Assembly (NCBI RefSeq): GCF_000143965.1
Contig: NC_014365.1
Coordinates: 3,313,501 to 3,377,500, forward strand
From: Desulfarculus baarsii DSM 2075
GTDB lineage: Bacteria > Desulfobacterota > Desulfarculia > Desulfarculales > Desulfarculaceae
Reading direction: 5' to 3'
Length of the DNA: 64,000 nt
The translations under genes and the position numbers were made by a program. The notes beneath the pieces are model-generated. The model saw nothing but the letters and a program-made list of their open reading frames with translations. It was not told where the DNA came from and searched no databases. Positions 41,773 to 52,399 of the stretch are shown piece by piece; within the stretch, counting starts at the first letter, position 1, and the number at the start of each line of letters is the position of its first letter.

Positions 41773-43737
41773 CTAATCGACCTTGAACTGCGCCATCTGC
41801 TGACGCAACTCCTCGGCGGCGGCGGCCTGGTTTTCGCTGGCGGCGGCCGCCTCCTCGACCAGGGCCGCGTTCTGCTGGACGGCCTGGTCCATGATCGTCA
41901 CGGCCTTGTTGACCTCGTCGATGCCCTGAGCCTGCTCCTGGCTGGCGGCCGAGATCTCGCCGATGGTGTTGGCCACCCGCTCGACGTTTTCGATGATCTC
42001 ACCCAGGATCTTGCCGCTATCGGCGACAAGTTCGTTGCCGTGGCGCACCTTGCCCACGCTGTCGGAGATCAGCGTCTGAATCTCCTTGGCCGCCGCCGCC
42101 GAGCGCCCGGCCAGGTTGCGCACCTCGCCGGCCACCACGGCGAAGCCGCGGCCGGCCTCGCCGGCCCGGGCCGCCTCCACGGCGGCGTTCAAGGCCAGCA
42201 GGTTGGTCTGGAAGGCGATATCGTTGACGACGTTGATGATGTCGGCGATCTTGCGGCTGCTCTGGCTGACGTCGGCCATGGCCTCGACGGTGCGCTCCAG
42301 CACGCGGCCGCCCTCCTGGGCCATCTGGGCGGTGGTGGCGGCCAGCTTGGCCGCGGCGGCCGAGTTGCCGGCGTTTTGCTTGACCGAGCTGGTCATCTCT
42401 TCCAACGACGAGGCGGTCTCCTCGATGCCCGCCGCCTGCTGTTGGGTGCGTTCGCTGAGATCCTGGTTGCCCTGGCTGATCTGGTTGGCCGCCGAGGCCA
42501 CGGTGTGGGTGGCCTGGATCACCTGGCGCACGGTGTCGGCCAGGCGGTCGCTCATGGTCTGCAACGAGCGCAGCATCAAGCCCAATTCGTCGCCGCGCTC
42601 GGTTTCGGCCTGGCTCAGGCGCAGGGTGAAATCACCGGCGGCCGCCCGGTTGATCGCCGCCAGGGCCGCGCCCAGGGGCGTGGTGATGGCCCGGGTCAGC
42701 AGCACGGCCAGGCCGCAGCCCAGCAGCAGGGCGGCCACGGCGATGATCAGCACCGTCAGCCGGGTGGTCATGGCCTGGTCGAGCATGGCCTCGTCGGAGA
42801 GGATGTGGACCTTGGCCTCGGCCCTGATGTCGTTGAGCAAGGCTTGCACCTTGGTCAGGTTGGGCTGGGTCTGCCGGGCGTAGATGGCCAGGGCCTCGTT
42901 GGCCGCGTTTTGCAGCGATTGCTCGGCCTCGATGGCCTGATCCAAAAAGCGCCGCACCTCGACCAGGGCCGGCAGGGTCTGGCTTTGATAGACCCGCGAG
43001 GCCTGGTCCATCAGCCCGCGGCGCGTCAGATCCTGGATCTGGGCGGCCGAGGCGTGCAGGCGTTGGTGCGGGTCGGCCACGGCGGCCATGGCCTGGTCAA
43101 ACTCCGGGAAGCGCTGGCGCATCGCCTGCACCTCGGTCGAGCGCAAAAACTGGCCCAGCGCGCATTTTTGCGGGTCCAACTCCACGCCCAGCGCGAAGCC
43201 GGGGCCGCCGCCCTGGCCAGCCGCGCCCAGGCACAGGGCGTTGAGCTTGCGGCAGACGGTGTTGGCCCACTCCAGATGCCGCACGAGGATGCCCGAAAGC
43301 CGGGCCAACAGACCGGGGTGGGGTTGGCGGAAGACTTCCTTGACGCGCGCCGCCGACTGATGCAACAGCGCGTGGGGCTCCTCGATGGCCGCCAGCAACG
43401 GGGCCAGGCTGGGCACCAGGCGCTCGGCCTTTTGCCGGCCATCGCCATAGTACCACTGGCCAAAGGCGCATTTTTTGGGGTCGAGCTGCACGGTCAACTC
43501 GCCGACCTCGGGGTCGCTCAAAAACGAGCCGACCTTGGCGGCCCAATCCAGATGGTCTATCTCCTTCTGGGCCAGGCTGCCGTCGAGTTGGTTGCCGGCG
43601 ATGACCTCGCGGGCGTTGTCGACGATGCCGTTGATGCCGGCCGCGGCCAGCAGGCTGGCCGCGGCCAACAGCAACAGCACCAGGCCGAATCCACCGCCGA
43701 TCTTGGCCCCGACTTTCATATTTTTAAGGCTGATCAT
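41773..43737 (-). CDS. Methyl-accepting chemotaxis protein with tandem CZB zinc-binding domains
   Basis: The 654-residue chemoreceptor has TM1 (about residues 12-34) and a periplasmic sensor holding two CZB modules. CZB-1 ligands are His62, Cys90 ([11 protein letters not shown]), His122 and His126 (HALLH). CZB-2 ligands are His154, Cys192 ([11 protein letters not shown]), His224 and His228 (HQRLH). A helical segment leads to TM2 (about 336-357), HAMP and the signal domain ([38 protein letters not shown]). CZB normally binds zinc with one Cys and three His and is usually cytoplasmic; zinc and HOCl sensing are known. ATG at 43737 was chosen over upstream codons because it starts the positively charged TM leader. 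Confidence 0.9.
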
Positions 43738-43899: not shown

Positions 43900-44943
43900 T
43901 CAGGCGTAGTCGACCAGTTGGGCCCGGCAGAGGGCCAGATCGTCCGGCGTGGGCGCGAAGGGAAAGTTGCGCAGGGGCTGGCTGGGCCGTTCGTTGGCGA
44001 AAGGCCGGTTGCAGGCCACGGCCACGCTCTGGCCGGGGCAGCCCGAGGTCATGAAGCACTGACCGCCCTCCAGGGCCGCCTCGATGACCGCCGCGCCCAC
44101 GCCAAAGCCCACGATGCGCCCCTGATCGTCGTAGGCGAAATCTGCCTCCACGGCCAGATCGCCGTCGATGAGCCAGCGGGCCAGTTGCGCGCGGCGATAG
44201 CCGCCCAGCGGCGGCTGGGGCCGGTCTTGCAGCAACGAGCCGGCTTCCGGAAAAAAGCTGAACAAATGCGTCGCGCCGCCCATGTCCCGCGCCCGTTGCA
44301 TGGCCCGGGCCAGGTCGCGCTCGCTCTCGCCCAGGCCGTGGATCAGGTGCACGCCGGCCAGGCCCGGCCCGAACACGGCCAAGGCCCAGGCGTAGGCGTC
44401 CCAATAAAGCTCCCAGCGATGGGGCCCGGCCACGCCTGGGCCGCGCAGGCGGCTGAAAAGCTCCGGCGTGGCGCAGTCGATGGCCACCCCGACGCGCTCG
44501 GCCCCGGCCCGACGCAGGCGCGTCAAGCCGTCGTGGCCCAGCACGGTGGGCGCGACCAGCACCGAAATCGGCGGCGCGACCTCGGCGCGCAACCGCTCGA
44601 CCAGGGCCACGGCTTCGTCCAGGGCTTGGGGGTGGGTGATCATCGACAAACACACCCGCTGGACCACGCCACGGCCTTGCACGGCCCGCAGGCGCGCGAT
44701 GATCTCGTCGGCGGCGCGGCGCGGCCAGTCCACGCGGATAAAGCTGTCCCGCCGGGCCAAGCGCTGGCGGCCCAGGCCGCAAAAGGCGCAGTTGGCCCGA
44801 CAACCGCCGGGCAGTTCCTGCAACAGATTCACGCAGTGCAGCCTGGCCCCCCGCGCGAAAAACCCCCGCGCCAGGCCAAGCTCCATGGCCGCGGCCAGGC
44901 TCAGGCGCAGGGTGGGGTTGACGCGGCTCAGGTCGCTGGCCAT
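43900..44943 (-). CDS. Radical SAM protein, LipS-type lipoyl synthase candidate (A)
   Basis: The 347-residue protein resembles biotin synthase. CRANCAFC (C-x3-C-x2-C, about residues 48-55) binds the radical SAM 4Fe-4S cluster. The C-terminal half has ECHLIHGLGES-like and MTSGCPGQSVAVACNRPFANERP motifs with Cys that could hold an auxiliary cluster acting as sulfur donor. In the context of LplA, a GcvH-like carrier and a GGR-type flavoprotein, it is best read as one of the LipS1/LipS2 pair that inserts sulfur into protein-bound octanoyl groups. I cannot decide which. It overlaps the preceding radical SAM gene by 16 bp and ends the operon. Confidence 0.75.
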   Translation of the reverse strand: MASDLSRVNPTLRLSLAAAMELGLARGFFARGARLHCVNLLQELPGGCRANCAFCGLGRQRLARRDSFIRVDWPRRAADEIIARLRAVQGRGVVQRVCLSMITHPQALDEAVALVERLRAEVAPPISVLVAPTVLGHDGLTRLRRAGAERVGVAIDCATPELFSRLRGPGVAGPHRWELYWDAYAWALAVFGPGLAGVHLIHGLGESERDLARAMQRARDMGGATHLFSFFPEAGSLLQDRPQPPLGGYRRAQLARWLIDGDLAVEADFAYDDQGRIVGFGVGAAVIEAALEGGQCFMTSGCPGQSVAVACNRPFANERPSQPLRNFPFAPTPDDLALCRAQLVDYA

Positions 44944-45857
44944 GGTCGTTCTCCGGGCGCGCCGACGCAGAGGCTGGGCGAGGCGGCGCAGCAGATGTCG
45001 CGCCAGACCGGTCGGCGGCCCAGCTCCAGGGCCAGGCGGGCCGTGGCCAACGAGGGCGCGGCGATGTTGTCGACCCCGGCCAGGATGGCCAGGCGTTCCA
45101 GTTCGGCGGCGTGGGGCCCCCTGGGCCGGCCACAGCCCAGGTTGATCACAAGCTCCGGGGCCAAGCCACGGGCCAGGCCGATCAGCCGGGCCACCGCCGC
45201 TGGCGGCGGTGGGCTGACCCCGGCCATGGGCGTGCCGGCCAGCGGCCGCAGGGCCAACAGCACCAAAACCCGCGCCCCGCTGGCCACGGCCATGGCCACG
45301 GCCCGCTCCTCGCCGGCCAGGCGGCCGTGATCCAGGCCGACCACCACGTGGGGGGCCAGGTTCAATCCGGCCCCGGCCAGGGCCTGGAGGCTTTGCTCCA
45401 CGCGGTCCACGCCCGACAAGCCATAGATCCGCCGGGCCACGGCGTCGTCGCCGATGAGGTCGATCATGGCCAGATCGACGCCGGAGGCGGCCAGCAGCCG
45501 GGCCTGGCCCTCGTCGGCAAAGCCGGCGTGCACGGCCAGGTAGAGCCCGGTCTCGTCCTTGATCCGCGCCAGCGCCCCGGCAAAGCGCTCCCAGGGCAGG
45601 CGGCCGTTTTGGTCGCAGCCGCCGCTGATCAACAGGCCCGGCGCGCCGGCGGCCTTGGCGGCCTTGGCCTGGTCCACCAGGGCCCGTGGGTCGTTTGCCG
45701 CGGTCATGCCCGCCAACATGCGGCCCTGGCAGTGGGGGCACATCAGCCGGCAGGCCCCGCCGCCCAGGCTGAGCGCCGGAAAGCGCCCCCGCCGGCCGTC
45801 GTAGACGATCATCCCCGGCACGAACAGGCCCAGTTCCGCGCCCGCCGCCTGGCTCAT
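44928..45857 (-). CDS. Radical SAM protein, LipS-type lipoyl synthase candidate (B)
   Basis: The 309-residue protein has the radical SAM motif CRLMCPHC (C-x3-C-x2-C, about residues 36-43), LLISGGCDQNGRLPWERF and MIDLIGDDAVARRIYGL. A C-terminal INLGCGRPRG and DICCAAS supply extra Cys for an auxiliary cluster. It is the likely partner of the next radical SAM protein in a LipS1/LipS2 system. ATG at 45857 overlaps the stop of the flavoprotein gene (ATGA), and its own end overlaps the next gene, so the three are translationally coupled. Confidence 0.75.
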   Translation of the reverse strand: MSQAAGAELGLFVPGMIVYDGRRGRFPALSLGGGACRLMCPHCQGRMLAGMTAANDPRALVDQAKAAKAAGAPGLLISGGCDQNGRLPWERFAGALARIKDETGLYLAVHAGFADEGQARLLAASGVDLAMIDLIGDDAVARRIYGLSGVDRVEQSLQALAGAGLNLAPHVVVGLDHGRLAGEERAVAMAVASGARVLVLLALRPLAGTPMAGVSPPPPAAVARLIGLARGLAPELVINLGCGRPRGPHAAELERLAILAGVDNIAAPSLATARLALELGRRPVWRDICCAASPSLCVGAPGERPWPAT

Positions 45858-46927
45858 CGCCCGGCCTCGGCCGGCCACAGCGGCCAATAGCGCCGCGCGG
45901 CCGCCGGCCAGTCGGCCCGCCACAGCGCCCAGGCCCCTTGGCGGGCGGCCAGGCCCCGGCCCAGATATTGACCAAAGCGCGCCGTCAGTTCGGCCTGATA
46001 GGCCGGCCCGGCCCCGGCCACGCCCCTGGCCAGATCGGCCGCCGCCGCCCCGGCCAACAGGCCAGAATCCACTGCCTGGGGCAGGCCCGCGCCCGTGCAG
46101 GGGTGACCCAGGCCGGCCGCGTCGCCGCAGAGCAAAAGCGGCGTCTGGCCCGGCCCCCGGACAAAGGCCGCGCGGGGTCCGTCGTGGCCCAGCCAGCCGC
46201 CGCCCCGCCGGACGACCCCGGGCCCGATCAGCCCCTGGGCCAACAAAGACTCGCGCCAGGCGGCCAGCAAGGCCGGCAAGCGCCGCCGGCCCAGCGTCAC
46301 GCCACCCAGGCCGATGTTGACCGTGGCCCCCTTGGGAAAGCTCCAACCATAGCCGAAAAGCTCGGGCCAAAACTCCACCGCCGGCCGGCAGGGCCTCGGC
46401 CCGGCCTCCACTTCCAGGTTGATGGCCGGCGCGCCGGCCTGGCGGCCCAGGCCCAAGGCCCTGGCCAGCGGCGACAAGGCCCCGTCGGCCACGATCACCG
46501 CCCCGGCCCGCACGGCAAAGCGCCCCGCCGGGCCCGCGACCAACAACCGGCCGTCCTCGTCCAGGCCCAGGGCCCTGGCCCGGCAAGTCAACGAGCCGCC
46601 CCACCACAGGGCCTCCTCGGCCAACGCCTTTTGCCACGTGGGCCGGTCCACGACCACCCCGGCCACCCGCGCCACGGCGCGCGTCTGGCCGGCCCGGCAT
46701 TCCAGCTCGCCAACGCGGGCGCGCGGCGCCTCGGCCGGAACCTGGCCCTGGCCCAAAACCAGGCCCGGCAGCCACTCGGCGCAGTGGTTGGGCCAGCCCA
46801 CCTGGGCCTTGGCCTCGATGATCAACGTCCAGGCCCCGGCCCTGGCCGCCGCCTGGGCCGCCAGCAGCCCGGCCGGCCCGGCCCCGACAATGGCCACGTC
46901 CACGGCGATTTTTTGCGGCCGGCGCAA
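45854..46927 (-). CDS. FAD-dependent oxidoreductase, geranylgeranyl reductase type (LipT-like)
   Basis: The 357-residue flavoprotein has the FAD motif DVAIVGAGPAGLLAAQAAARAG (about residues 10-31). WSFPKGATVNIGLGG and LLCGDAAGLGHPCTGAGLPQAVDSG are typical of the geranylgeranyl reductase family. GGR-type flavoproteins called LipT accompany lipS1/lipS2 in many prokaryotes, where they may reduce or manage thiols during lipoate assembly; that role is inferred here from position. The start is a TTG at 46927, five bases after the lplA stop; GTG at 46909 is the alternative. Confidence 0.78.
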   Translation of the reverse strand: MRRPQKIAVDVAIVGAGPAGLLAAQAAARAGAWTLIIEAKAQVGWPNHCAEWLPGLVLGQGQVPAEAPRARVGELECRAGQTRAVARVAGVVVDRPTWQKALAEEALWWGGSLTCRARALGLDEDGRLLVAGPAGRFAVRAGAVIVADGALSPLARALGLGRQAGAPAINLEVEAGPRPCRPAVEFWPELFGYGWSFPKGATVNIGLGGVTLGRRRLPALLAAWRESLLAQGLIGPGVVRRGGGWLGHDGPRAAFVRGPGQTPLLLCGDAAGLGHPCTGAGLPQAVDSGLLAGAAAADLARGVAGAGPAYQAELTARFGQYLGRGLAARQGAWALWRADWPAAARRYWPLWPAEAGR

Positions 46928-46932
46928 GGGCC

Positions 46933-48492
46933 CTAGCCTCGCCCGGCCAAAAAGCGCGCCACCCGCGTCAGCAGGTCGATCTCCAGGCGGCTTTGGCTCT
47001 CGAAACGGCCGGCGTAGGCCGCCTCGTGCTTGCCCAGGTCATAGCAGGTCAGCGAATCCAGCCCCACGATGAAGCCTTGGGGCCCGGCGGCGGCCATCTC
47101 GTCTTGGTGCTTGGCCAAAAAGGCCTGGCAGCAACTGCCCAGGTAGGTCTGACCCGGCTGGGCGGCCAGGGCGCCGAGTTCTTCCATCAGGTGCTCGAAG
47201 CTGGTGATGCTCACCGGCCGCATGCCCAGTTCATCGGCCAGGTCGTAGAGCGGGCCGATCGCGCACAGGCCACATTGCGCGCAGCCGTCCTCGTGGCGCT
47301 GGGGGCAGGACAAGTCCTTGGCGCAATAAGGCAAAAGCAGCGTGCGCGGCCGGTTGAAGCCCGCCAGGCCCAGCTCGGCGGCGATGGGATAAATATCGTT
47401 TAGCTCCTCGGCGGCGAAGCCCGGCCAGGGGGCCGCGCCCTTTGCGGCGGCCTGGCCAACGGCCGCGACGAGTTGGGTCTTTTCCACGCCGATCAGCTCG
47501 ACGCCATCGCCGGCCAACAGCGGCGTCAAGATCGCCCGCAACCGGTCGGGGTCCAGTTCGGCCCCGCGCAACGCGCCCTCCAGGTCCATGATCAGGCGCT
47601 GGGGCCGGCAAAAAAAATCGCCGGTGAGCAGGGCCTGCTTGATCCGCCGCCGGCCGGGCTCGGGCAAAAGGACCACGTTCAGCCGGCCCGACTGGGCCCG
47701 CAGCACTTGATCGGCCTGGCCCAGCCCGCCGCGCCGCCAGATCCATTGGTCCGACTGATAGTGCGCCAGCTCGTCGGCCAGGCGCGCCCGTTCGCGCTCG
47801 CTGAGCGCGGCCGGGGACAGGCTAAGCCCCAGGCCCTCGGCAAAGGCCGTGGCGATGGCCTCTTTCAGGCGGTCCATCCCTGGCGGGCCGCCCAGTTCGT
47901 CGGCCAAAAAGGTCAGGCGTTGCAAGAGGCTCTGCATCTCGCGGCGCTTTAGCTTTTCCACCGGCACGCGTAGCGCCCGCAGCATCTGCTCCATGCAGTT
48001 TTCCACCAGCACCGTGCCCTGGAACATCCAGCCCTGGCCGAAAAAGGCCATGCCCGTGCCCGAGACCTTGCGGCCGTTGATTTCTATATCGTTGCGCGGC
48101 CGAAAGGCGGCCGGCGCGCCCAGGCTGGTGATGGCTCTGGCGGCCAGGTCGGCCAGGCGGGCGGTGATCTGGGCGAAATCGCGGCCCAGGCCGGGGGCGC
48201 TGTTGGGCCAGAACAACTCGAAGCCCAGCATCGACGGCGTGAACAAGATCGCCCCGCCGCCGGTGACGCGGCGGTTGATGGCGATGCCCTGCTGGCGGCA
48301 ATAATCCAGGCGCAGCTCGGCGGCCGGGTCTTGGTTGTGGCCGACCAGGGCCGCCGGCGGGTCGAAGCGCAAAAAACGCAGCGTCGGCGGCGAGAGCCCG
48401 GCCTCGACTTCTTCTAGAATGATCGTGTCCAGGGCCATGTTGGCCGCGCCGCTTTGCAGGCCGGTGTCCAAAAGGCGAGCGTGGATGGTCAT
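46933..48492 (-). CDS. lplA: Lipoate-protein ligase fused to DUF116
   Basis: The 519-residue protein is a fusion. Residues 1-345 are a lipoate-protein ligase A: RRVTGGGAILFTPSML, then NDIEINGRKVSGTGMAF with the catalytic Lys, and a C-terminal accessory region. Residues about 355-519 are DUF116. It contains LLPYCAKDLSCPQRHEDGC and CGLCAIGPL Cys clusters, YLGSCCQAFLAKH and DSLTCYDLGKHEAAYAG. LplA adenylates and attaches lipoate or octanoate to the carrier Lys; DUF116 has no known reaction but its Cys suggest an Fe-S centre. ATG at 48492 overlaps the carrier gene stop (ATGA). Confidence 0.87.
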   Translation of the reverse strand: MTIHARLLDTGLQSGAANMALDTIILEEVEAGLSPPTLRFLRFDPPAALVGHNQDPAAELRLDYCRQQGIAINRRVTGGGAILFTPSMLGFELFWPNSAPGLGRDFAQITARLADLAARAITSLGAPAAFRPRNDIEINGRKVSGTGMAFFGQGWMFQGTVLVENCMEQMLRALRVPVEKLKRREMQSLLQRLTFLADELGGPPGMDRLKEAIATAFAEGLGLSLSPAALSERERARLADELAHYQSDQWIWRRGGLGQADQVLRAQSGRLNVVLLPEPGRRRIKQALLTGDFFCRPQRLIMDLEGALRGAELDPDRLRAILTPLLAGDGVELIGVEKTQLVAAVGQAAAKGAAPWPGFAAEELNDIYPIAAELGLAGFNRPRTLLLPYCAKDLSCPQRHEDGCAQCGLCAIGPLYDLADELGMRPVSITSFEHLMEELGALAAQPGQTYLGSCCQAFLAKHQDEMAAAGPQGFIVGLDSLTCYDLGKHEAAYAGRFESQSRLEIDLLTRVARFLAGRG

Positions 48493-48923
48493 GCCGGAAA
48501 CGCCGGGCAATCGTCCAGCCGGGCCAGCTCGGCGCTGATGAAATCGCGCAAGGCCGGCCCGCGCAGCAGGCCGGGCAGTTCGGCCTCCAGGGCGCTGGGC
48601 GCGATGCGGCAGAGCCATTGGCCGTAGGGGTCGGCGTTGATCGGCCGGGGATCGTCCGCCAGGGCCTGGTTGACCTGGCGCACCACGCCCGAGATGGGCG
48701 CGACAATGCGGCCGACCCACTTGCCGCTCTCCACCGAGCCCAGGGTCTGGCCTTGCGCCACGCTCAGGCCCGGCCGGGGCAGATCGACAAAGGCGATCTC
48801 GCCGGCCTGGTCGGCGGTGTAGGCGTCCAGGCCCGTGGCCGCCAGCTCGCCCTCCAGGCGCAGCCACTGGTGGTTGCGGTCGTAATGCAGCTCATCGGGA
48901 AAGTCGTATCCGTTTATGTTCAC
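48489..48923 (-). CDS. GcvH-like lipoyl carrier protein
   Basis: The 144-residue protein has the glycine-cleavage H-protein fold (NHQWLRLEGELAATGLDAYTAD, GEIAFVDLPRPG). Its lipoylation loop is SVESGKWVGRI, with modified Lys68 in place of the usual ESVKAxSD. The ESGK variant is seen among alternative lipoate-binding proteins. It is probably charged by the adjacent LplA and matured by the radical SAM pair. GTG at 48923 overlaps the decarboxylase stop (GTGA). Whether it serves glycine cleavage or another decarboxylation is open. Confidence 0.85.
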   Translation of the reverse strand: MNINGYDFPDELHYDRNHQWLRLEGELAATGLDAYTADQAGEIAFVDLPRPGLSVAQGQTLGSVESGKWVGRIVAPISGVVRQVNQALADDPRPINADPYGQWLCRIAPSALEAELPGLLRGPALRDFISAELARLDDCPAFPA

Positions 48924-50383
48924 GACGGCGCTCCGGGGCTTTGCGGGGGTTGGACAAACAGCTCGTTGAAATATTCGCGCAATAGAACCTCGCGCAGGGC
49001 TGGCGTCATGACGTTTAACAGGCCATTGACCCCGGCCATGCGCCGGGGCAGGCCCGCGCCGCCCAGGCCGGCGGCCGAGAGCATGGCCGCGACGTCTTGC
49101 GGCCTCAGGCTGGCGGCGTCCAGACCGGCCAGACCCCGGGCCAGGGCGGGCCAGTCGGGCGGGCCCTTTTCGGCGGCCAGGCGGGCGCAGTCGGCCAGAT
49201 CGGCCAGCAGCTCATCGACCCGGGCCAGGCTGGCGGCGCTGACGCTCAGGTGGATGTTCTCGGGCGAGGACGCGAAGCGAAACTGCGGTTGCAGGCTCCA
49301 GCCGCGCGTCTTCATCTCGTCGATGATCTCGAAGACGTCGATCCGCGGGGCGGCGATGGCCACCAGGCACAGCTCGGGCCGGCCCAGGATCTCCAGGCCG
49401 TCGATGGCCCGCGCGCCCTCGATGATCCGCCGCGTGGCGCGCAGGGTCTGATCGGCCAGGGCCAGATAGCCGTCGTCGCCGATGTGGTTGAGCACGGCCC
49501 AGGCCGCGGCCATGGGCCCGCCGGACTTGCTGGACTGCACGGCGTTGTTGACCACGGCGTAGCCCGGCCACTGGGCGCAGGCGAAGATCTGATGCCGGCG
49601 CAGGTCTTTGTTTTTGTAGCAGATTATCGATGCGCCCTTGGGGCAGTAGGCGTATTTGTGCCAATCCATCGAGATCGACGACACCCCGGGCACGGAAAAG
49701 TCAAAGGGCGTGGCCTCCTGGCCCAGCCGGCGGAAATAAGGCAATAAAAACCCGCCGATGCAGCCGTCCACGTGCAGCCATAGGTCGCGCTCCAGGGCCA
49801 ATTGGCCCAGCTCCGGGATGGGGTCGCAGACGCCGTGGGCGTAGCTGACCGCCGAGCCGACAAGCATGATCGTCGCCGGCGTGATCGCCCGGGCCATGGC
49901 CGCCACGTCGGCCTTGAAGCTTAGCTCGTCCACCGGCACGCTCACCACCCGCAGGCCCAGGTAGTGCGCGGCCTTGAAAAAAGCGGCGTGAGCCGTGGCG
50001 GGCAAGACCATCTCGGGCCGGCCCAGGGCGGGGTTGCGGGCCATGGCCCGATCGCGGGCGGCCTTGACGGCCAAGATGATGCTCTCGGTGCCGCCGCTGG
50101 TGAAGTTGCCCACCACCCGCTCGTCGCCGCCCAGATGGGCCGCAGCCATGGCCGCCAGGTCGGTCTCCAGGCGCAGCAGGCTGGGAAAGGCCGTGGGATC
50201 AAGGCCGTTTGGCGTCAGGTACATGGCGTGGGCCCGCCGAGCCAGTTCGTCCAGATCGGGCCGGCCGGCGTCGTAGACATAGGCCCACAACGCGCCGCCC
50301 TTGACCGCCAGATCGTCTTGGCCCATGGCCGCCAGGTCGGCCAGCACCGTTTCCATGGCTCGCCCGTGGGGCGGTATCTTCAT
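48920..50383 (-). CDS. PLP-dependent group II decarboxylase / sphingosine-phosphate lyase-like
   Basis: The 487-residue fold-type I PLP enzyme shows GNFTSGGTESIILAVKAARD (phosphate binding), LHVDGCIGGFLLPYFRRLG and SISMDWHKYAYCPKGAS, whose Lys near residue 244 should form the Schiff base. The closest groups are aspartate/tyrosine decarboxylases and sphingosine-1-phosphate lyase. ATG at 50383 follows GGAGG. It opens the operon and overlaps the GcvH-like gene by four bases, which suggests the decarboxylase and the lipoyl carrier work together, much as GcvP works with GcvH. A purely metabolic decarboxylase is the alternative. Confidence 0.83.
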   Translation of the reverse strand: MKIPPHGRAMETVLADLAAMGQDDLAVKGGALWAYVYDAGRPDLDELARRAHAMYLTPNGLDPTAFPSLLRLETDLAAMAAAHLGGDERVVGNFTSGGTESIILAVKAARDRAMARNPALGRPEMVLPATAHAAFFKAAHYLGLRVVSVPVDELSFKADVAAMARAITPATIMLVGSAVSYAHGVCDPIPELGQLALERDLWLHVDGCIGGFLLPYFRRLGQEATPFDFSVPGVSSISMDWHKYAYCPKGASIICYKNKDLRRHQIFACAQWPGYAVVNNAVQSSKSGGPMAAAWAVLNHIGDDGYLALADQTLRATRRIIEGARAIDGLEILGRPELCLVAIAAPRIDVFEIIDEMKTRGWSLQPQFRFASSPENIHLSVSAASLARVDELLADLADCARLAAEKGPPDWPALARGLAGLDAASLRPQDVAAMLSAAGLGGAGLPRRMAGVNGLLNVMTPALREVLLREYFNELFVQPPQSPGAPS

Positions 50384-50674: not shown

Positions 50675-52399
50675 ATGGAGCAGCGGCGGCTGATCGGCAA
50701 GGGCAAGTTCATCCTGCTCACGGCGGGGTATTTCGTTCTGTGCAACTGGGCGTTCATCGTCCTGACGCGGGTGATTCAGCCGATATTGCTGGGCGAGGTG
50801 CATTTCAATTGGCTGGTGCGCACCATCGTCGCGCCGATTCCCCTCAGCCTGGTGCTGTTTTTGCCGTTCGTGTTCATCGCCGGACGTTTTTACGAGCGGC
50901 CGGATTTCGATTTTCCCGGCAAGATGCAATCGGGCGTCAAGATCCTGGCCGTGGTCGCCTTTGCCCTGACCTTCATCATGACCTACACCGGCGATGGCGG
51001 CGACCTGATCATGATCGGCATGATCTCGCTCAACGTGATGCTGGCCATTGTCAACGCCAGCTACGCCCTGCGCTTCGTGCTGGTCAGGCTGGTGGCGCGC
51101 AACTTCCCCGATTTCGACCAGACCCGCCAGACCGTGCGCCTGGCCCCCCGGATCATGTTCATCGTGCTGCTGGGCGTCAACATGATGATGATGTTCATCA
51201 ACGGCGTGCACGTGGTTTACCGGGGCGTGTATTTCCAGAATCAGGCCCTGCGCATGACCCAGTCCATGGAGCTGGCCCTGGCCTCGGGCGGCGGCGCGGC
51301 GGCCGCGCGGGCGGCGGCGCGTGGTTTCGCGGTGAACGAGGCGACGGCCGCCACGGCCGATCCGGCCCAGGCCATGGCCATCCAGGCCGCCAGCGAGGGT
51401 CGCGGTCACGCGGTCAAGGGCGATGTCGTGCTGGCGGCCCTGGCCTTGGGCGAGGGCGGGCGCTATCTGGTGGCCAGCGCCCCGGTGAGCGTGGTCCACG
51501 CGGTGTTGTATCGCAACTTCACCTCGCCGATGATCGTCTTTTCGCTGCTGGCGGCCCTGTTCGGCCTGTTGGTCTGGCTGATGGTCCGTTCGATGGCCCG
51601 GCCCATCGAACGGGTGATCGACGGACTCGACGAGGTGGGCGGGGCCGTGGCCCAAAGCGCGCGGCACCTGTCCAGTTCCAGCCAGAGCCTGGCCGAGGGC
51701 TCCTCGCAGCAGGCGGCCTCGTTGGAAGAGAGCGCCGCCTCCATGGAGCAGATGTCGGCCATGACCAGGCGCAACGCCCACAGCGCCCAGCAATGCCACC
51801 AGCTCATGGGCCAGGCCGCCGCCCACGTGACCCAGGCCCGCCAGGTCATGGATCAGCTCAACGCCTCCATGGAGCAAGTCACCGCCGCCAGCGAGGCCAC
51901 CTTCAAAATCATCAAGACCATCGACGAAGTGGCCTTCCAGACCAACCTGCTGGCCCTCAACGCCGCCGTGGAGGCCGCCCGGGCCGGCGAGGCCGGGGCG
52001 GGATTTGCCGTGGTGGCCGACGAGGTGCGCAACCTGGCCCTGCGGGCGGCGGCGGCGGCCCGCGAGACTTCGGCGATGATCGAGGACACCGTGGGCAAGG
52101 TCAAGGCCGGCGCGGCCATGGCCGATCAGGCGGCTCAGGGTTTCGCCGCCGTGGCCTCGGCCACGGGCAAGGTGGGCGAGCTGGTGGGTGAGATCGCCGC
52201 CGCCTCCGACGAACAGGCCCGGGGCATCGTCCAGGTGGGCCAGGCCGTCAGCCAGATGGATCAGCTCACCCAACGCAACGCCGCCGGAGCCGAGGAGACC
52301 GCCAGCGCCGCCCACGACATGGACGGACAGGCCAAACGCATGCACGCCCTGGTGCGGGCCCTGGCCGCGCTGATCAGCAATCGCCACAGGGGTGAATAA
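50675..52399 (+). CDS. Methyl-accepting chemotaxis protein with polytopic N-terminus
   Basis: The 574-residue receptor has an unusual N-terminal half with about seven hydrophobic segments (residues about 10-310) and only a short soluble loop before the last TM. The signal domain is standard ([40 protein letters not shown]). No named sensor domain is recognised, so it may sense membrane state or couple to another membrane protein. ATG at 50675 follows AAGAGGAG. The hairpin-tip DNA is identical over about 65 bp to the receptor at 4890-6446. Confidence 0.9.

Follow-up and report, generated by a model that had tools for sequence, protein, structure and literature searches.

Positions 43900-50383 of the window, by which we mean the whole 64,000-nucleotide stretch of the Desulfarculus baarsii DSM 2075 genome analysed here, are tiled by six minus-strand open reading frames. 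Read from 50383 downwards they encode a pyridoxal phosphate (PLP) enzyme, a lipoyl carrier of GcvH fold (P0002), a lipoate ligase, a flavoprotein and two radical S-adenosylmethionine (SAM) proteins. We are moderately confident that this is an alternative lipoylation operon serving a carrier of redox type, and that the PLP lyase gene at its head was acquired recently. The assignment of the last four genes (LplA, LipT-like flavoprotein, LipS1, LipS2) to an alternative lipoate-assembly set is supported, with sulfur insertion itself as the predicted function. Neighbouring genes overlap by 4, 4, 4 and 16 bp, or are separated by a gap of 5 bp in one case, and homologues of each of the six were found in further genomes, therefore they are real genes; coordinates, overlaps and homologues all agree with the six-gene overlapping operon of the preliminary description. 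In third-position GC content the six genes do not stand out from the rest of the window.

The last two genes encode a LipS1-like (44928..45857, minus strand, 309 aa, overlapping the flavoprotein gene by 4 bp) and a LipS2-like radical SAM sulfur-insertion protein (43900..44943, minus strand, 347 aa, overlapping the LipS1 gene by 16 bp). The NCBIfam models NF053742 (LipS1) and NF053743 (LipS2) match them with E-values of 8.6e-56 (next bioB, 6e-12) and 7.9e-61 (next family, 7e-12), that is, more than 40 orders of magnitude ahead of the next family. The scores of 189.5 and 206 bits are below the curated cut-offs of 230 and 270, respectively, and the copies of a relative from the same family (L106) are likewise below the cut-offs (203.5 bits for its LipS1), therefore this branch seems to be poorly covered by the LipS models. 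In the Thermococcus kodakarensis enzymes the residues holding the clusters were shown by mutation to be C27/31/34, C230, C276, C277 and H159 in LipS1, and the Cx3Cx2C motif with the auxiliary C85, C276 and C279 in LipS2 (PMC9585515). The corresponding ligands are present here: C36x3C40x2C43, auxiliary C242, C289 and C290, and H170 in LipS1, each invariant in 19 LipS1 sequences, and C48x3C52x2C55 with auxiliary C98, C302 and C311 in LipS2, invariant in 30 LipS2 sequences. The last auxiliary pair of LipS2 (C302, C311) is spaced x8, whereas the spacing is x2 in T. kodakarensis. The two assignments are based on the family models and the ligand residues.

The geranylgeranyl-reductase-type (GGR) flavoprotein (45854..46927, minus strand, 357 aa, TTG start) follows the ligase gene after the 5 bp gap. 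Its best model is TIGR02032 (105.7 bits, cut-off 158.8), which the copy in L106 passes at 175 bits, and its gene is linked to the LipS genes in the window as well as in relatives. LipT is a flavin adenine dinucleotide-containing oxidoreductase and a probable supplier of electrons (PMC10332631). LipS2 homologues were detected in 58 of 395 sampled genomes of the phylum, and the first 20 LipS2 loci that were read mostly have the genes for LplA, the GGR flavoprotein, LipS1 and LipS2 side by side. The LipS1/LipS2/LipT/LplA route, which had been recognized in the preliminary description, is upheld by this recurring gene block, by the preserved cluster ligands and by family models that are the best by far, albeit below their curated cut-offs. 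In relatives of the same family the block lies, as judged by eye, between a ribonuclease-E/G-like gene and tig-clpP-clpX-lon, without the PLP gene or the carrier. A second arrangement of LipS2 in the phylum (L170-L175) consists of a carrier of the KW class described below (QSRKWIG), an LplA lacking DUF116 and LipS2, with no LipS1 adjoining; the gene upstream resembles, by eye, histidinol dehydrogenase.

The ligase (46933..48492, minus strand, 519 aa, overlapping the carrier gene by 4 bp) contains the LplA catalytic domain (residues 16-218; PF21948, 147 bits), a weak LplB-like region (266-348; 26.7 bits against a cut-off of 65 for the LplB model) and a C-terminal DUF116 domain (about 378-519), a fusion that was overlooked in the preliminary description. 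The LplA-DUF116 fusion recurs in 20 sequences, in which eight cysteines (390, 396, 404, 407, 410, 454, 455, 483) and His462 are invariant. The DUF116 part appears to be a domain of the iron-sulfur or cysteine-chemistry kind, and its role is perhaps to feed clusters or sulfur to LipS1 and LipS2. DUF116 is found in 185 of 390 genomes of the phylum, among the matches listed mostly in short frames resembling stand-alone proteins. This commonness means that the bare presence of DUF116 is no marker of LipS genomes. A search of the available paper library for DUF116 together with lipoate returned no report, a search for solved structures covering the domain found none, and the single-sequence fold of the LplA-DUF116 protein was, with a mean predicted local distance difference test (pLDDT) score of 36, not usable.

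The carrier P0002 (48489..48923, minus strand, 144 aa, GTG start) has the sequence ESGK68WVG, in which Lys68, the residue singled out earlier, aligns with the lipoyl lysine. Its best family match is PRK01202 (GcvH) with 110 bits (cut-off 117). The genome is a single contig of 3,655,731 bases and is estimated to be 99.98% complete, which gives weight to absences, and neither GcvT (PF01571) nor GcvP (PF02347) has a match anywhere in it. We read about 50 carriers together with their neighbours, and checked the Pfam domains of the partner proteins. Carriers linked to gcvT or lspA/lgt have K[AST]VS at the lipoyl lysine (with one variant, SSKSIT). The carriers with KW.G ('KW' class) adjoin HdrABC-like proteins, GlcD or GlcD-GlcF fusions, CCG-domain iron-sulfur proteins, multihaem cytochromes or LipS/LplA, and never gcvT; three of them (L158, L167, L168) had no neighbour with a label. 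In a maximum-likelihood tree, built without two long rows that had left P0002 unresolved in a first tree, P0002 groups with 31 KW carriers, apart from 16 canonical ones (support 100/99). It is most similar (52% identity) to a carrier within the Hdr-GlcDF cluster of a family relative. Because GcvT and GcvP are both missing from the genome, and because ESGKW is shared with redox-linked carriers, P0002 is not a glycine-cleavage H protein: the GcvH fold and the lipoyl lysine noted earlier are there, but the parallel with glycine cleavage does not hold for a carrier of KW class that stands outside the gcvT-linked clade.

In relatives from the family and the phylum (L156, L157, L160-L162, L165, L166) genes for an HdrA-like, an HdrC-like and an HdrB-like protein, a KW carrier and an 860-aa GlcD-GlcF fusion stand in a row, and these rows adjoin, by eye, benzoyl-CoA reductase/2-hydroxyacyl-CoA dehydratase-like subunits, an activator ATPase and an acyl-CoA ligase. 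In L204 (3350-9595) and L206 (8133-14111) an uninterrupted series of genes leads from LplA, LplA-DUF116, the flavoprotein, LipS2 and LipS1 to a KW carrier and GlcD, which is the clearest natural link of the Lip assembly line to a redox carrier. A similar proposal, with GcvH presenting a disulfide to HdrB, was made for Culexarchaeia (PMC9723716).

From these data we suggest that the operon encodes a second complete lipoyl-assembly line, in which an octanoate/lipoate ligase, a LipT-like electron donor, LipS2 (sulfur at C8) and LipS1 (sulfur at C6) would act on a substrate encoded together with them, the GcvH-fold carrier, presumably lipoylated at Lys68. Judged by its class the carrier would most likely serve as a dithiol/disulfide carrier for CCG-domain (HdrB/GlcF-type) iron-sulfur oxidoreductases acting in trans. 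The PLP gene at the head of the operon would have been acquired horizontally and would be co-transcribed with the Lip set, and its product would most likely cleave or decarboxylate an amino substrate of its own, with no need for the carrier.

Several observations weigh against this reading. P0002 diverges at the base of the KW group and its branch is long (0.96), therefore its job may have changed. The Hdr-GlcDF cluster of the relatives is absent here, the best matches in the genome to its GlcDF fusion and HdrB being 30-39% identical, and no Hdr, GlcD or CCG gene adjoins the P0002 gene, nor is there anything hdr-like in the operon or among its direct neighbours. Finally, the PLP and carrier genes overlap by 4 bp, which suggests translational coupling.

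The PLP enzyme (48920..50383, minus strand, 487 aa, ATG start shortly preceded by GGAGG, Schiff-base Lys243) is a fold-type I protein resembling sphingosine-1-phosphate (S1P) lyase. Its predicted structure (mean pLDDT 83.7) superimposes on StSPL, the S1P lyase of Symbiobacterium (3maf/3mad), with Z 44.8, 1.5 A over 364 residues and 42% identity; the values for MfnA are Z 37.5 and 23% identity. MfnA is also the best NCBIfam match (207 bits, cut-off 299). When the PLP and phosphate-pocket residues of StSPL (PMC6148460) were mapped, all PLP contacts proved to be kept (G98, T99, H132, D206, C208, H242, K243), as were Y105, N126 and K317 of the phosphate pocket (here Y37, N59 and K249), but two of the five residues contacting the substrate phosphate are changed (StSPL His129 to Asp62, Ala103 to Tyr35), as they are in most homologues. 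Since the PLP contacts are kept and the phosphate pocket is altered, the enzyme is a member of the lyase family that probably acts on a substrate other than that of S1P lyase, and decarboxylation is a putative activity. Fold type I and kinship with S1P lyase, both claimed in the preliminary description, agree with sequence and structure, which make it a relative of S1P lyase rather than a typical decarboxylase. The GcvP domain (PF02347) has no match in the enzyme, and GcvP is not among its best 50 structural matches, which by itself is uninformative. Supply of beta-alanine was considered as its job and discarded, PanD being present in the genome.

Homologues of the PLP gene are scattered: they occur in 24 of 297 genomes of the phylum, and a further 27 genome contigs, drawn from several phyla, have them too, whereas the other 19 genomes of the family that were searched gave nothing beyond weak matches of 24-27%. 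Horizontal gain in this lineage would be the simplest account. tblastn found no GcvH or Lip gene around 27 homologous loci (flanks of up to 8 kb, some shorter at contig ends), nor around nine more (flanks of about 10 kb). Apart from this genome, three carry both the PLP gene and LipS2, where 3.3 would be expected by chance. The neighbours of the homologues, read by eye (various transporters, thiamine-diphosphate enzymes), gave no consistent hint of a substrate.

It could be asked whether the carrier is a mere relay, on which lipoate is built before it is moved to the E2 subunits of 2-oxoacid dehydrogenases, a role that GcvH has in Bacillus subtilis (with LipM/LipL) and in mitochondria. The carrier is encoded with its own assembly enzymes, and a 2-oxoacid dehydrogenase cluster is present in the genome together with four genes of LplA/LipB type, among which there is possibly one for an amidotransferase. 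However, that cluster is adjoined by its own LipB-LipA fusion gene, no amidotransferase was identified, and in most relatives the KW carriers keep the company of redox genes rather than E2 genes, thus we regard the relay as unlikely. The fusion, of 508 aa, is encoded about 70 kb from the operon (L060:8514-10040; G000:C1:3288513-3290039) and scores 365 bits with the lipA model (cut-off 310) and 126.5 bits with the lipB model (cut-off 83.6). The earlier statement that LipA, LipB and T-protein are missing is therefore true for the window, but genome-wide it stands for the T-protein only. LipA alongside LipS1/S2 is common in bacteria (PMC10332631). The fusion gene is followed by genes for a multihaem cytochrome c, a second KW carrier, a CCG-domain iron-sulfur protein and a second LplA. 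The third of the three GcvH-like genes in the genome (ESAKSVS; L061:9972-10361) belongs to a kind that in this family stands beside lspA/lgt (L193, L194, L202, L203), here in a genome that encodes neither GcvT nor GcvP, and one relative (L202) has two such lspA/lgt-linked genes in tandem.

The preliminary description had proposed a lipoate-dependent amino-acid decarboxylation like that of the glycine-cleavage P and H proteins. In a fuller form of this idea, the PLP enzyme would decarboxylate, or cleave by a retro-aldol reaction, an amino substrate and pass the aminoalkyl group to the lipoyl arm as GcvP does to GcvH, ammonia and an aldehyde would be released, and lipoamide dehydrogenase would reoxidize the arm. 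The overlap of the two adjacent genes and the divergence of the long-branched carrier speak for such a pairing, as does the lack of a competing P or T protein in the genome. The PLP gene and the carrier are, moreover, both specific to this lineage at this place, since relatives in the family have the Lip block without either. On the other hand, none of the 36 homologous PLP loci has a carrier nearby, co-occurrence with LipS2 does not exceed chance, S1P-lyase-type enzymes with an intact cofactor site are of the self-sufficient kind, and the carrier belongs to a redox-linked class. Since the PLP gene was not found in any of the other 19 genomes of the family that were searched, and neither carriers nor Lip genes lie near the 36 loci, the pairing rests on one operon, and we consider it quite unlikely. 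A still bolder idea, and a similarly unlikely one, is that the carbanion which the enzyme forms by decarboxylation or retro-aldol cleavage is taken up by the lipoyl group of a carrier devoted to it, which the LipS1/LipS2 line of the operon would lipoylate. The outcome would be a PLP system that depends on lipoyl groups without being glycine cleavage, and that arose in this lineage when an acquired lyase was joined to a redox-type carrier.

That the PLP lyase feeds the pathway, by releasing, as S1P lyase does, a fatty aldehyde to be oxidized to octanoate for the ligase, is hardly credible: the fold is that of S1P lyase, and the ligase of the known pathway accepts free octanoate or lipoate, with no octanoyl transferase activity from octanoyl-acyl carrier protein (PMC6067878), but the phosphate pocket is altered at the His129 and Ala103 positions, the operon has no aldehyde dehydrogenase gene, and elsewhere the Lip block occurs without the PLP gene.

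The operon is flanked on either side by chemotaxis-receptor-like genes, one at 41773-43737 (minus strand) and one upstream and divergent, at 50675-52399 (plus strand).

It is useful to compare the operon of D. baarsii, presumably a sulfate reducer, with the sLpl(AB)-LipS1/S2-LipT systems, whose hosts are sulfur oxidizers. In both a ligase, two LipS-type radical SAM proteins and a flavoprotein are clustered with a GcvH-fold acceptor, LbpA in the sulfur oxidizers, and in both LipA is also in the genome (PMC10332631, PMC6067878). The differences are that here no shdr genes adjoin, the ligase is fused to DUF116 and a PLP lyase gene leads the operon. LbpA is the nearest described kind to P0002; however, LbpA of sHdr sulfur oxidizers has two conserved cysteines, near the N- and the C-terminus (PMC6067878), whereas the only cysteines of P0002 are at 105 and 139, with none near the N-terminus. 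GcvH shares the fold and the lipoyl lysine with P0002, but has ESvKA instead of ESGKWVG and works with GcvT and GcvP, which this genome does not encode. StSPL has the same fold and all PLP-binding residues of the PLP enzyme and differs in the phosphate pocket; MfnA, an L-tyrosine/L-aspartate decarboxylase, shares the fold type, with a sub-cut-off model score and a lower structural score.

The lipoate part of the earlier proposal thus stands and is widened. The decarboxylase-carrier chemistry has the operon position in its favour and the comparative evidence against it, and may, with low probability, be an innovation of this one lineage. The results extend the LipS1/LipS2 route, with its GcvH-like acceptors, from sulfur oxidizers to this phylum, which is rich in sulfate reducers, and the eight-cysteine DUF116 fusion links lipoate assembly with a domain whose function is not known. 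With the KW mark, redox-type carriers can easily be separated from glycine-cleavage H proteins, which are now named alike in databases. KW carriers beside Hdr, GlcD and CCG iron-sulfur modules suggest that lipoate carries electrons or thiols in the energy metabolism of anaerobes.

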